Below, one piece after another: positions 7,555 to 13,876 of a DNA stretch of 64,000 bases. Position 1 is the first letter of the stretch; the number at the start of each line of letters is the position of its first letter. A model generated the notes under the pieces. It was not told the origin of the DNA and did not search any database. It saw only the letters and a program-made list of their open reading frames with translations. The translations under genes were made by a program, and so were the position numbers. The stretch comes from Segnochrobactrum spirostomi (lineage in GTDB: Bacteria > Pseudomonadota > Alphaproteobacteria > Rhizobiales > Segnochrobactraceae): positions 124,001 to 188,000 of the forward strand of contig NZ_VWNA01000001.1 of NCBI RefSeq assembly GCF_009600605.1, read 5' to 3'.

Positions 7555-7662
7555 GGCCGCTGAAAGTCTCTCGGTGGGGGATCGCGGTGCGGCGACATCC
7601 CTTAGACGGCGCCACCGATGCTCGTCGAGGCGCCCCTTCAATCCATCCGGCAGAGCCGGAAC

Positions 7663-7688
7663 AAAAAAGGCGGCGCCGGAGCGCCGCC
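7663..7688 (-). terminator. Intrinsic terminator of tracrRNA
   Basis: On the minus strand GGCGGCGC, loop TCCG, GCGCCGCC, then TTTTTT (the plus strand shows AAAAAA at 7663-7668 and the stem arms at 7669-7676 and 7681-7688). Eight G-C pairs with a U tract is a textbook rho-independent signal. It also forms the 3' hairpin normal for tracrRNAs and shields dusA from tracrRNA transcription. Confidence 0.88.
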
Positions 7689-7740
7689 CTTATCTGGTGC
7701 GATCGAGCGCTTGTTAACCGCCGGACCACGATCTCTGTTC
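7663..7740 (-). ncRNA. tracrRNA of the type II-C CRISPR system
   Basis: Predicted from sequence, about 78 nt, minus strand. The plus strand at 7723-7737 reads GGACCACGATCTCTG, identical to the crRNA-sense repeat core, so the minus-strand RNA is a true anti-repeat. Pairing extends through 7718-7722 with one G.U wobble and through part of GTT at 7713-7715. The anti-repeat is followed by a short GCG-CGC hairpin region (7699-7711) and then an intrinsic terminator (7663-7688) with a six-U tract. A promoter sits immediately upstream (7746-7773), giving a start at about 7738-7740. In type II systems tracrRNA pairs with each crRNA repeat and is needed for Cas9 loading. Exact ends are inferred. Confidence 0.85.
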
Positions 7741-7745
7741 GAATA

Positions 7746-7870: not shown

Positions 7871-10800
7871 ATGATGCTACGACTTTACCGCGAAACCTGT
7901 CGTTTCGCCCTCGATGTCGGAACCCACTCGATCGGCTGGTGCGTGCTGCGGCTCGGCCGGAACGGCGAGCCCGACCAGATCCTCGGCCTCGGCACGCGCG
8001 TCTTTTCCGATGGGCGGGAGGCGAAGTCGAACGCGTCCCTCGCCATCGCGCGGCGCGCCGCGCGCGCCATGAGGCGACGGCGCGATCGCTTTCTGCGCCG
8101 CCGCGGGGCCCTGATCCGCGCGCTCAGCGAGGCGGGCCTTTTCCCGTCTGATCCCGCCGACCGAAAGGCGCTCGAAAAACTCGACCCTTACGGCCTGCGG
8201 GCGAAAGCCTTGGACGGCCCCCTCGCCCCGCACGAGATCGGTCGCGCCTTCTTCCACCTCAACCAGCGCCGCGGCTTCCGGTCCAACCGCAAGACCGACC
8301 GGCGGGACGACCAGGAGGCCGGCAAGATCGCCGTCGGCGTCGACCGGCTGCGCGCCGCCATTGCCGAGAGCGGCGCGCACCCTCGGCGAATTCCTGCATT
8401 GGCGCCGCCAGACGGCGCCCGATCCGGCGCGGCCCGAGAAGCACGCGCCCGTCGCGAGCGTGCGCACCCGGCTCCGCCCCGCAACCGCCGACGGCGGGCG
8501 CGGCGCCGAATACGAGTTCTATCCGAGCCGCGATCTCATCGAGGACGAATTTCAGCACCTCTTCGAGGCCCAGGCGGCCTATCACCCGGAGCTGATGACC
8601 GAGGCGGTGCGGGAAAAGCTGCACGAGATCGTATTCTTTCAGCGCCCCTTGCGTGCGCCGCCGGTCGGGCGATGCACGCTCGAGCCGAGCGAGGAGCGTC
8701 TCCCCAAGGCACACCCCCTGTTCCAACGCCGTCGGCTTTTCGAGGACGTCAATGCGCTGCGGGTCATCGCCCCGGACGGCTTCGTGCGCCCCCTCGACCG
8801 CGCGGAGCGCGATCTCGCCGTCCTGAAGCTTCAGGACAAGCGGAAGGTCTCGTTCGAGTCGCTGCGCAAGAGCCTGTGGCTGGCGCCCGGCACACGCTTT
8901 CGCCAGGAGAGCCAAAGTCGCACCGACATCGCCGGCGATGTGATTCGGGCCCAGTTTGCGGACAAGAAGCGGTTTGGCCCCCGGTGGACGACCCTCTCGC
9001 CGGACACCCAATGGGCGATCATCGCGCGGCTGCGCGACGAAGAGGACGAGGAAACCCTCATCGCCTGGCTCGTCGACGCCTGGGCGCTCACCGTGGATCA
9101 GGCCAAGGCCGTGGCCCGTATCGAGCTCCCCGTCGGCTTCGGCCGCTTCGGCCCGACGGCGACGACGGCTCTGATCGAGGAGCTCGAGGCCGACGTCGTC
9201 GTCTACAGCGAGGCCGCAGCGAGGGCGGGCTACCACCACAGCGATTTCCGCTCAGACGACGGCGCCGTCCGCGGTGATGGAGAGCCGCCCGCCCTGCCCT
9301 ATTACGGCGTGCCCCTGGCGCGTCACATCATGCCCGGCACCGGCGACCCGGCGGACGCGGAGGATGTCCGCATCGGCCGCGTCACCAACCCGACCGTCCA
9401 CATCGCCCTCAACCAGATCCGGCGAGTGATCAACCGGCTGATCCGCAGCTTCGGCCTGCCGAAGGACATCGCCGTCGAACTCGCCCGCGATCTCAAATTC
9501 ACCGAGGAGCGGAAGCGCGAGATCAACGCCGAGAACGACCGCAACCGCCGGGCCGCCGAACGGCGCTCCGAAAAGCTCCGCGAGCTCGGCCAGCCGGACA
9601 CCGGCGCCAACCGGGCGATGCTGAAATTGTGGGAAGAGCTCGGCGGCGGCGACGTGATCGACCGGCGCTGCGTCTATTCGGGCCGGCAGATCTCGGCAAG
9701 CATGCTGTTCGACGGCTCGGTGGAGGTCGATCACATCCTGCCGTTCTCGGCGACGCTCGACGATTCCAAGGACAATCTGGTGCTCGTCCTGCGCGAGGCG
9801 AACCGGCTCAAGCGCAAACGCTCGCCCTATGAAGCCCGGCACGACCTCGAGGCCCACTTCGGACCGGACGCCTCGTGGGACGCGATCGCCGCGCGCGCCG
9901 CGAAATTGCCGCCGGGCAAACGCCGCCGCTTCGAGCCCGACGCGCTGGAGACGTTCGAGGCGGAAGGCGGGTTCGCGGCGCGCCAACTCGTCGACACCCA
10001 ATATATCTCGCGCCTTGCGGCGGAATATCTCGGCACCCTCTATCCCGAGAGAGGGGAAGGATCGAACCATGTCTGGGTTCTGCCGGGGCGTCTCACGGAG
10101 TTGATCCGCCGCAAGCTCGGTCTCAACGGCCTGCTTCCCGACGACAATATCGGCGGCGGCGCCTTGCAGGAAAAGAACCGGCTGGACCACCGGCATCACG
10201 CCATCGACGCCTTCGTGATCGGGATCACCGACCGCGCCATGCTGAACCGGATCGCCCGGGACAGCGGCCGCGACGGCGCCGAGGGCCGCGAACGGGTCAT
10301 CGTATCGGACCCGTGGCCCGGCTTCCGCGAGGACCTTTCCTCAGCCCTCGCGCGCACGATCGCCAGCCACCGCCCCGACCACGGCACGACCTCCAAGGCC
10401 GGCTTGCCGAACGGGCGCGATCAGACCGCGGGCCGGCTGCACAACGATACCGCTTACGGCCTCACCGGTCGCGTCCGCGACAACGGTGTCCCGATCGTCG
10501 TCCATCGCATTCCGATCACCAGCATCGAGCCGTCGCACCTCGGCGACGATCCCGATCGGGGCGTTTGCGATCCGGACCTCCGCGAGGCCTTGCGCGCCTT
10601 CACGCTGGAGACCGACCCTAAAGCCTTCCCCGAGAGGCTGCGCCGCTTCGGCGAGTTGGGGCCGCTGCAGTTCCACGGCATCCGCCGGGTCCGGATCGTC
10701 GAGCCGCTGAAGGTCATCCCGATCCGCGACCGCGAGGGGCGGCCCTACAAGGCCTACAAGGGGGACAGCAACGATCGCTATGACGTGTGGGAGGGACCGG

Positions 10801-11183
10801 ACGGACGCTGGCAGGCGGAAGCGGTCTCGATGTTCGAGGCGCACCAGCCGGGCCGGGTTTCGCCGGTCCGCGCCGCCTGCCCGACCGCCCGAAAGGTGCT
10901 TTCGCTCCACCGCGACGACATCGTGGCTCTCGAGATCGACGGTGAGCGGCGGCTCTACCGGGTGGTGAAGTTCTCCGACAAGCAGATCACCCTCGCCCCG
11001 CCCAACGAAGGCGGCCGGCTCAAGGCGCGTGACGGCGATCCGAACGATCCGTTCCGCTACCTCTACGTCTCCGCCTCGTCACTGAAGGCGTCCAAGGCGC
11101 GGCAGGTGCGGGTGGACGAACTCGGGCGCGTGCTCGATCCCGGCTTCCCCGCACGCAAGACGAAGCGGCGAACGAGACGTTGA
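7871..11183 (+). CDS. cas9: Type II-C Cas9 nuclease, reading frame broken near 8378
   Basis: RNA-guided DNA endonuclease. Joined across the frame break it is about 1,104 residues, the size of compact II-C Cas9 proteins. RuvC-I: ALDVGTHSIGW with Asp15. Arginine-rich bridge helix: about 57-80. RuvC-II: PKDIAVELARDLKF, Glu near 537. HNH: EVDHILPFSATLDDSKDNLVL, His near 622. RuvC-III: HHAIDAF, Asp near 780. All catalytic residues are intact. The N-terminal frame (169 residues) stops making sense at GSGCG-rich sequence 8375-8378; the rest continues in the +1 frame from ARTLGEFLHWRR to the TGA at 11183. Two missing bases in the GCGCGC run, or one extra base, would explain it. As written, only fragments are made. 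cas1 follows 7 bp after the stop. Confidence 0.9.
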
Positions 11184-11190
11184 GGCGGCT

Positions 11191-12141
11191 GTGGAGCGGA
11201 TCGTCGACATCGCCACCGACGGGCGGCACCTGTCGGTCCATCGCGGGTTCCTCGTCGTCTCGGAAGGGCGGCAGGAGGTCGGCCGCGTCGCGCTCGACGA
11301 TGTCGCAGCCGTCATCGTCCACGCCCACGGCGTCACCTGGACGACGAACCTCGTCGTGGCGCTCGCCGAGCGCGGATCCGTCCTCGTCGTATGCGGGGCG
11401 AACCACGCCCCGGTCGCGATCTGCCTGCCGATCGAGGGGCACCACGCTCAGAACGCCCATTACCGGGCGCAATGGGAGGCCGGACGCCCGCTTTCGAAGC
11501 AGCTCTGGCGACGCGTCGTCATCGCCAAGATTCAATGGCAGGCCGCCGTGCTCGAAGCCCACGGCCGGGATGCGGCGGCGTTCGGCATGCTGGTACGCCG
11601 GGTCGGATCAGGCGACCCGGAGAATGTCGAAGCCCAGGCAGCACGGCGCTATTGGCCGCTCCTCATGGGGAGCGCGTTCAGGCGCGATCGCGCGGCAGAA
11701 GGCCTCAACGGCCTGCTGAACTACGGCTATACGATCCTTCGAGCCATGGTCTCGCGCGCGATCGTGGCGGCGGGTCTTCACCCGTCGATCGGTATCCACC
11801 ACGCCAATCGCGGAAACGCATTCGCGCTCGCCGACGATCTCGTCGAGCCGTTCCGGCCTCTGGTCGATTCGCTTTCGTTGCGGTTGGCCGAGCGCGGAAT
11901 CGTCGCCCTCACGCCCGACGCGAAGCGCGCTTTCGCCGGCCTTACCGCCCTCGACCTGCCGTCCGAGCGCGGCACGACCCCGGTTTACGTCGCCGCCCAG
12001 AGGCTCGCCCAATCCCTTGCCGACTGTTTCGAGAGCGGTCGGGCAGCCGATCTCGCGCTGCCGGCCACCCCGTCGCCCCTGGAACTCGCCGGGTTGGACG
12101 CCTTGTTGATCGATCCACCCCCCTTGGAGCGGACGACATGA
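11191..12141 (+). CDS. cas1: CRISPR-associated integrase Cas1 (type II)
   Basis: Metal-dependent integrase that, with Cas2, inserts new spacers. 316 residues from the GTG at 11191, seven bases after the cas9 stop. The C-terminal helical domain has the family signatures EGLNGLLNYGYTILRAMVSRA (catalytic Glu) and GIHHANRGNAFALADDLVEPFRPLVD (His and acidic residues), so the metal site looks complete. The N-terminal beta domain is normal. Translation is probably coupled with cas9. The stop is 13 bp before the ATG of cas2. Confidence 0.95.
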   Translation: MERIVDIATDGRHLSVHRGFLVVSEGRQEVGRVALDDVAAVIVHAHGVTWTTNLVVALAERGSVLVVCGANHAPVAICLPIEGHHAQNAHYRAQWEAGRPLSKQLWRRVVIAKIQWQAAVLEAHGRDAAAFGMLVRRVGSGDPENVEAQAARRYWPLLMGSAFRRDRAAEGLNGLLNYGYTILRAMVSRAIVAAGLHPSIGIHHANRGNAFALADDLVEPFRPLVDSLSLRLAERGIVALTPDAKRAFAGLTALDLPSERGTTPVYVAAQRLAQSLADCFESGRAADLALPATPSPLELAGLDALLIDPPPLERTT

Positions 12142-12154
12142 AAGGCGACCGAGC

Positions 12155-12910
12155 ATGAGGGCCGAGAAGAGGGCGGGCTCTCGGCGGGAGATCACGGCCG
12201 ACACCGCGATACCGACGCAACTCAGCGGATACCGTCTGATGTGGATCTTCGTGATGTTCGATCTTCCGGTGGACACCCAGGCGCATCAGCGCGCCGCGAC
12301 GAAGTTCCGCGAATTTCTCTTGGATCAAGGCTTCGAAAAGAGCCAGTTCTCCGTGTACGCTCGCTTCTGCAACGGCAAGGAGCAGTTCGAGACATATATC
12401 AGGCGGGTCGGGGCGAACCTTCCCGAACAAGGAGAGGTTCACGTTCTGAGCTTCACGGACCGGCAATATGAAAACATCATCCGTTTTTCAGGCCAGCGCA
12501 GGCGCAAAGCGCTGCTTTCACAACGCGTTACGCCACGATCGAGGATAGCCGTTCAGAGATCGTGGTCCAGCGGCAACGTAGTCCCGACCTACAACGTGCT
12601 CGTGAAGAGGATAGCCGTTCAGAGATCGTGGTCCAGCGGCAACGGCGCTGGGGCTCAACGATGGCGACAAGGCAGGATAGCCGTTCAGAGATCGTGGTCC
12701 AGCGGCAACTGCGTGGCTCTATCGGTTCTGCATCGATCAAGGATAGCCGTTCAGAGATCGTGGTCCAGCGGCAACCGCTCGTCGCCGGCCTGCGATCGCC
12801 CTATCAGGATAGCCGTTCAGAGATCGTGGTCCAGCGGCAACAAGCGTCGGGCGGTCATCGAGATTGGCGAAAGGATAGCCGTTCAGAGATCGTGGTCCAG
12901 CGCAGCGTGA
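12155..12910 (+). CDS. cas2: Cas2 whose frame has no stop before the CRISPR array
   Basis: Structural partner of Cas1 in spacer integration. The recognisable Cas2 fold starts at about residue 23 (SGYRLMWIFVMFDLPVDT, with the conserved Asp of FDLPV) and runs through QFSVYARFCNGKEQFETYI and LSFTDRQYENIIRFSGQ to about residue 120. No stop follows. The frame enters the first repeat exactly on a codon boundary at 12542 and continues through all six repeats to TGA 12908-12910, giving 251 residues. Each repeat codes RIAVQRSWSSGN and each 30-nt spacer ten more residues, so the tail is five 22-residue units plus an end. Usual II-C Cas2 is about 100-110 residues. Either the original stop was lost when the array abutted the gene, or a base change or indel removed it. 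Confidence 0.9.
   Translation: MRAEKRAGSRREITADTAIPTQLSGYRLMWIFVMFDLPVDTQAHQRAATKFREFLLDQGFEKSQFSVYARFCNGKEQFETYIRRVGANLPEQGEVHVLSFTDRQYENIIRFSGQRRRKALLSQRVTPRSRIAVQRSWSSGNVVPTYNVLVKRIAVQRSWSSGNGAGAQRWRQGRIAVQRSWSSGNCVALSVLHRSRIAVQRSWSSGNRSSPACDRPIRIAVQRSWSSGNKRRAVIEIGERIAVQRSWSSAA
12542..12907 (-). CRISPR. Type II-C CRISPR array, six 36-nt repeats and five 30-nt spacers
   Basis: Repeats begin at 12542, 12608, 12674, 12740, 12806 and 12872; spacers are 12578-12607, 12644-12673, 12710-12739, 12776-12805 and 12842-12871. Repeats 1-5 are identical. Repeat 6 departs from consensus after about 29 bases (at 12901). The crRNA sense is the minus strand, starting GTTGCCGCTGG, because only that orientation pairs with the minus-strand tracrRNA. 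In this sense every repeat ends GGCTATCCT, with TATCCT resembling a -10 box. A start 6-7 bases into the spacer would leave a guide of about 24 nt, as known for Neisseria-type II-C arrays. crRNA transcription is convergent with cas2. No spacer matches another part of this window that I could see. Confidence 0.97.
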
Positions 12911-12997: not shown

Positions 12998-13876
12998 ATG
13001 ATTCCGGGCAGGCAAATCGGGCGGCTGATCGAGATCATGGCGCGGCTGCGCGATCCGCAGACCGGGTGCCCCTGGGATGTCGAGCAGGACTTCGCCTCGA
13101 TCGCCCCCTACACCGTCGAAGAGGCCCACGAGGTCGCCGAGGCGATCGCGCGCGGCGACATGGACGACCTCAAGGACGAGCTCGGCGATCTCCTGCTCCA
13201 GGTCGTCTTCCACGCCCGCATGGCCGAGGAAGCCGGTCTGTTCGAATTCGGCGACGTGGTCGAGGCGATCACGGCGAAGATGATCCGCCGCCACCCGCAC
13301 GTGTTCGGCTCGTCGGAGGCCCGCAGCCCCGAGCTCGCCCAGGTTCAGTGGGTGGCGATCAAGGCGGAGGAAAAGGCGCTGCGCGCCGCCCGCCGCGCGG
13401 CCCGCGGGTTGCCGGCGGAGCCGAACGGCGGCGTGCTCGCCGGGGTGCCGCCCTCCCTGCCCGCTCTGTCGTCGGCGGTGAAGCTCCAGGAGAAGGCCGC
13501 GACCGTCGGCTTCGACTGGAACGACCCGCGCCTCGTCCTCGCCAAGATCCGCGAGGAATGCGACGAGCTCGAAGCCGAACTCGACCGCGCCGACCGTGCC
13601 GCCGCCGCGGCGGAGCTCGGCGATCTCCTGTTCGCCGTCGCCAACCTCGCCCGGCACCTCAAGACCGATCCCGAAGCGGCGCTGCGCGGTACGAACCAGA
13701 AATTCCGCGACCGCTTCGCCTTCATCGAGGCCGCGCTCGCCGCGCAAGGGCGTCATCCGAAGGACGCCGGCTTGGACGAGATGGAAGCGCTCTGGCAGCG
13801 CGCCAAGACGGAGCGGAAGGCCGACGCGGTGGCGGAGGCGCCGCTCGGCGGGTCTTCAGCCCGCGCGGCCGAATAA
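12998..13876 (+). CDS. mazG: Nucleoside triphosphate pyrophosphohydrolase MazG
   Basis: Hydrolyses NTPs and dNTPs to monophosphates; thought to clear aberrant nucleotides and affect ppGpp levels. 292 residues with two MazG repeats. The first holds RDPQTGCPWDVEQDFASIAPYTVEEAHEVAEAI and DDLKDELGDLLLQVVFHA (metal-binding ExxED-type helices). The second, around 195-245, holds EECDELEAELDRA and AELGDLLFAVANLAR. In many Hyphomicrobiales mazG lies next to hflX; here a hydrolase/CGNR pair separates them and the CRISPR locus lies on the other side. GGAG upstream supports the ATG at 12998. The end overlaps the convergent hydrolase by 21 bp. Confidence 0.95.
   Translation: MIPGRQIGRLIEIMARLRDPQTGCPWDVEQDFASIAPYTVEEAHEVAEAIARGDMDDLKDELGDLLLQVVFHARMAEEAGLFEFGDVVEAITAKMIRRHPHVFGSSEARSPELAQVQWVAIKAEEKALRAARRAARGLPAEPNGGVLAGVPPSLPALSSAVKLQEKAATVGFDWNDPRLVLAKIREECDELEAELDRADRAAAAAELGDLLFAVANLARHLKTDPEAALRGTNQKFRDRFAFIEAALAAQGRHPKDAGLDEMEALWQRAKTERKADAVAEAPLGGSSARAAE

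Follow-up and report, generated by a model that had tools for sequence, protein, structure and literature searches.

The window analysed here is a 64,000-nucleotide stretch of the Segnochrobactrum spirostomi genome. Judged by its sequence, it carries a type II-C CRISPR-Cas locus made up of tracrRNA, cas9, cas1, cas2, and an array. The gene content is that of type II-C, with cas9, a type II cas1, and cas2 present and neither csn2 nor cas4; the next gene past the array (12998-13876) is MazG-like by eye, and is neither of these two. The predicted tracrRNA (7650-7745, minus strand) lies upstream of cas9 and comprises an anti-repeat, stem-loops, and an intrinsic terminator. Its reverse complement holds GAACAGAGATCGTGGTCCGGCGG, which matches the repeat and supplies the anti-repeat expected of a type II-C locus, followed by GGCGGCGCTCCGGCGCCGCCTTTTTT. 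The duplex between tracrRNA and the crRNA repeat is calculated at -48 kcal/mol, and the predicted tracrRNA has no match in Rfam. The cas9 gene (7871-11183, plus strand) is frameshifted at about 8373-8380: TIGR01865 has two matches in different frames, at 7871-8377 (117 bits) and at 8361-11180 (412 bits), and an alignment with the Cas9 of five relatives puts the frame switch at the same place. An intact Cas9 reading frame is therefore missing from the window, while the frame is open in all 54 relatives with enough sequence. The frameshift sits at a GCGCGC run (8376). The Cas9 bridge-helix family PF16593 matched neither the window nor the controls. Downstream, cas1 (11191-12141, plus strand) is of type II (TIGR03639 cas1_NMENI, 231 bits; PF01867). 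The genuine part of cas2 (12155-12508, plus strand) extends to QRRRK, about codon 93 of a 104-codon conserved core. The ferredoxin-like core of the Cas2 family is recognised by TIGR01573 (64 bits) and PF09827 (53 bits), both above their cut-offs, and codons 1-93 are 80-84% identical to the closest relatives. In cas1 and in the cas2 core, silent differences far outnumber amino-acid ones (for cas2, a pS of 0.56-0.79 against a pN of about 0.11), and both still look to be under purifying selection.

The array and the frame that crosses it

The array (12542-12907) consists of six 36-nt repeats, the last of them decayed, and five 30-nt spacers. The repeats start at 12542, 12608, 12674, 12740, 12806, and 12872, a spacing of 66 nt, and the repeat is identical to that of Xanthobacter agilis L058. 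Type II repeats start with GTTG. On the minus strand the window's repeat does so as well and pairs with the predicted tracrRNA, which places the crRNAs on this strand, so that any extension of Cas2 through the array would be antisense to them. The sixth repeat (12872-12907) has decayed at its plus-strand 3' end, where GCGCAGCG stands instead of GCGGCAAC. In relatives, decay is often seen in the distal repeat and not in the one adjoining cas2, and by this comparison the decay seen here is ordinary. In type II-C arrays new spacers are inserted beside cas2 (PMC6008519), in agreement with the side of entry that a sequence-only reading of the window had expected. Protospacer searches gave nothing convincing in phages (E about 1), only chance-level matches plus an apparent other array in plasmids, and no exact spacer cores in IMG/VR. 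An array of the same kind that follows cas2 in Methylopila jiangsuensis (L022) has 91 repeats, against six in the window.

The cas2 open reading frame (12155-12910, plus strand) runs for 251 codons from the ATG at 12155 to the TGA at 12908-12910, staying open through all six repeats. Repeat 1 begins on a codon boundary of this frame (12542 is 387 nt from 12155, or 129 x 3), and the translation reads ...FSGQRRRKALLSQRVTPRS-RIAVQRSWSSGN-(10 aa)-..., a pattern that continues through the array with every repeat translated as RIAVQRSWSSGN, the decayed sixth only partly. The loss of the cas2 stop codon is thus real in the assembly sequence as given. The sequence-only reading had described a cas2 frame without a stop that crosses the array in codon register. 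All its checkable details are correct, and its 66-nt unit and 251-residue product were both found again.

The openness of the array is expected by chance and does not go beyond it. The repeat is stop-free in two of the three forward frames, and across the entire array no stop interrupts two of the three plus-strand frames. When the bases of the spacers are shuffled, all five remain open in 22% of trials (a composition probability of 0.22), and the arrays of 45 relatives stay open over five units in 23 of their 135 frames (17%). Moreover, 66-nt units make up 1087 of the 1215 units (89%) in the arrays of type II-C relatives. No selection on a tail is needed. The extension of the cas2 frame (12509-12910, plus strand), apparently an accidental read-through, has a GC content of 0.51/0.62/0.68 at the three codon positions, against 0.57/0.35/0.73 in the cas2 core. 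Genes in the window have their lowest GC at the second codon position, and the extension departs from that pattern.

The normal end of cas2 and the missing segment

Among 150 related genomes, 18 have a Cas2 match (the window's own genome being one of them), giving 19 relative loci. In 18 of the 19, Cas2 ends 104 codons past YRLM, its conserved start, and the tail nearly always resembles (N)PxQLALF. Cas2 likewise ends at codon 104, its tail being (N)PxQLALF followed by a stop, in 76 of 80 named alphaproteobacterial loci; of the other four, three carry an in-frame stop early in cas2 and one is truncated where its contig ends. In a class-wide sample Cas2 ends at codon 103 or 104 in 28 of 29 loci; these three sets overlap in part. 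A leader of 62-72 nt, from the stop to repeat 1, is present in all 69 of the 76 loci in which an array was detected. The sequence-only reading had named a normal Cas2 and an intervening leader in close relatives as evidence against itself. Such relatives exist, and they include the only other genome of the same family with the system (G001, locus L005). In the alignment P98, Q100, and F104 of Cas2 are invariant; all three are missing from the window, whose Cas2 lacks the PxQxxLF tail of type II-C. In the class-wide search the window's Cas2 is matched up to position 94 and no further, against about 104 for other full-length matches. Early in-frame cas2 stops beside an array occur at codon 5 (L093 and L139, apparently one genome), codon 7 (L111), and codon 69 (L099), so loss of cas2 is seen elsewhere in the alphaproteobacterial type II-C group, in a few relatives.

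A cas2 frame that reaches the array was found in none of the 76 named loci with an intact cas2, none of the 18 relative loci, and none of the 28 class-wide loci. A link between spacer content and the C-terminus of Cas2, which had been suggested from the sequence, finds no support in these counts, and a programmed or selected cas2-array fusion was rejected because no relative has such an arrangement. It would take the form of a functional tail, that is, a 22-residue-periodic Cas2 extension encoded by the array and dependent on its spacers, tying array content to the adaptation protein. The frame is truly open and in register, and most units in related arrays are 66 nt long, as this idea would have it. 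However, chance explains the openness, the composition of the extension is not gene-like, the strand being read is antisense to the crRNAs, and cas9 is broken; in addition, the fusion removes the conserved Cas2 tail needed for Cas1 binding, and the arrangement is confined to the window's genome among the relatives compared. A functional tail is thus extremely improbable.

From YRLM to repeat 1 the window has 312 nt, against 377-387 nt in nearly all relatives, so that about 74 nt are missing: the Cas2 tail with its stop codon and the greater part of the leader. The putative junction lies at 12506-12516, with about 71-75 nt lost. On the cas2 side the sequence is recognisable as far as QRRRK. On the other side, the 26 nt before repeat 1 (12516-12541, plus strand) align with the 3' ends of the relatives' leaders, and a right-anchored alignment identifies them as a leader remnant containing the 3' arm of an inverted repeat and the leader-repeat junction (CAACGCGTTACGCCACGATCG). 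The last five leader bases, GATCG, and the repeat that follows are the same as in X. agilis L058. A deletion would therefore span the end of cas2 and run into the leader while sparing the leader-repeat junction, either as one event or as a few adjacent ones. Since only about 26 of the usual 62-72 nt of leader are left between cas2 and repeat 1, the locus is classed as a degraded member of type II-C. The right end of the deletion could instead fall inside an older spacer, with the whole leader gone and 12512-12541 being what is left of that spacer; if the junction lay at 12511, the 30 nt from there to the repeat would indeed be spacer-sized. Yet none of 1298 spacers and none of 500 shuffles equals the mean score with which the last 20-34 nt match the relatives' leaders in the right-anchored alignment, and GATCG adjoins the repeat as it does in Xanthobacter. 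On this alignment we rejected a leftover spacer in front of repeat 1, which we consider highly unlikely.

In the leaders of the relatives, an inverted repeat occupies the stretch some 5-50 nt ahead of repeat 1, and its distance from that repeat hardly varies (for example in L058, L065, and L039). Across 27 relatives, 11 of the 12 pairs formed by its arms show compensatory changes, with pairing in 86% of cells; covariation scores 0.61, whereas shuffles give 0.19 and slid controls at most 0.15. A literature search found no description of this element. It could be a terminator for antisense array transcripts, or a site for the integrase or for a DNA-bending protein. The window has lost the first arm and kept the other, and what is left of its leader folds at -4 kcal/mol, where three relatives give -21 to -35.

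The inverted-repeat leader and the GCGCGC run in cas9 are both error-prone sequence, which raises the question of whether an assembly or sequencing error accounts for the two lesions. The true genome would then have a normal Cas2 end, a stop, a full leader, and an intact cas9, in keeping with the signs of selection on cas1 and the cas2 core. Against this, the missing stretch of about 74 nt is no one-base slip, the genome assembly is in 4 contigs and 99.5% complete, and the window's other genes look unbroken in a rough frame survey. Such an error is unlikely, though it deserves some weight. The sequences themselves show the missing stretch, the leader remnant that was kept, the cas9 frameshift, and the normal form in relatives; that the lesions are real, and that they entail a loss of function, is what we infer.

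Origin of the fused frame and what it means

Unless the assembly is wrong, the frame very probably arose by accident, when a deletion in a type II-C locus undergoing decay let cas2 read through. The loss of about 74 nt, in one step or in a few neighbouring ones, would have fused cas2, at about codon 93, with the final 26 nt or so of the leader. Gone with it would be the conserved Cas2 tail and its stop codon, as well as the first of the two arms of the inverted repeat in the leader. Because the join would fall in a stop-free frame of the repeat and the units of 36 + 30 nt keep the phase, the fused frame would enter the array and cross it. The extension is most likely a functionless by-product. 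The accident of stop loss that had been offered as one possibility from the sequence is thus supported, and a cause for it can now be proposed in this deletion.

The Cas2 C-terminus is essential for Cas1 binding in Streptococcus pyogenes and Escherichia coli, and in structures from Enterococcus faecalis and Streptococcus thermophilus it forms a sheet with Cas1 (PMC12216489). The tail lost from the window aligns with this Cas1-binding C-terminus of the studied systems. Since the lost residues correspond to the Cas1-binding strand, a loss of integrase assembly would be expected: the prediction is an impaired Cas1-Cas2 integrase and a frozen array, and the separate frameshift in cas9 suggests that interference is lost too. 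In the type II-A system of S. thermophilus, 10 bp of leader are enough for integration (PMC6895254), and by analogy integration might be possible with the last 20 nt or so of the leader if Cas1-Cas2 were assembled. Given the intact tracrRNA and the signs of selection on both cas1 and the core of cas2, any decay would be recent, provided that the lesions are real.

X. agilis L058, X. autotrophicus L065, and Methylopila L039 resemble the window in having the order cas9-cas1-cas2-array, a 36-nt repeat in a 66-nt unit, a crRNA strand opposite to the cas genes, and a decayed distal repeat. They differ from it in three ways: their Cas2 stops at codon 104, the inverted repeat is complete in their leader of about 70 nt, and their cas9 is open. 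In the type II-C system of Riemerella anatipestifer spacer acquisition has been demonstrated by experiment (PMC6008519), whereas in the window the leader is truncated and Cas2 is altered. The Cas2 core of type II-A integrases (E. faecalis, S. thermophilus, and S. pyogenes) is homologous to that of the window (PDB 5xvn, E = 1.4e-16), but their Cas2 binds Cas1 through a C-terminal strand (PMC12216489), and the window's Cas2 has no corresponding conserved tail.

Were the array truly translated, each acquired spacer would alter an adaptation protein and a spacer bearing a stop would truncate Cas2. What lies in the window looks to be a CRISPR locus in decay and not a novel type of protein, and as such the long frame carries little biological weight: when a stop codon disappears, a 66-nt unit in phase with the gene is enough to give a long and eye-catching frame by accident, which is a caution for annotation pipelines. 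For the group as a whole, the comparison reveals a well-conserved Cas2 tail and a covarying leader inverted repeat in alphaproteobacterial type II-C arrays.
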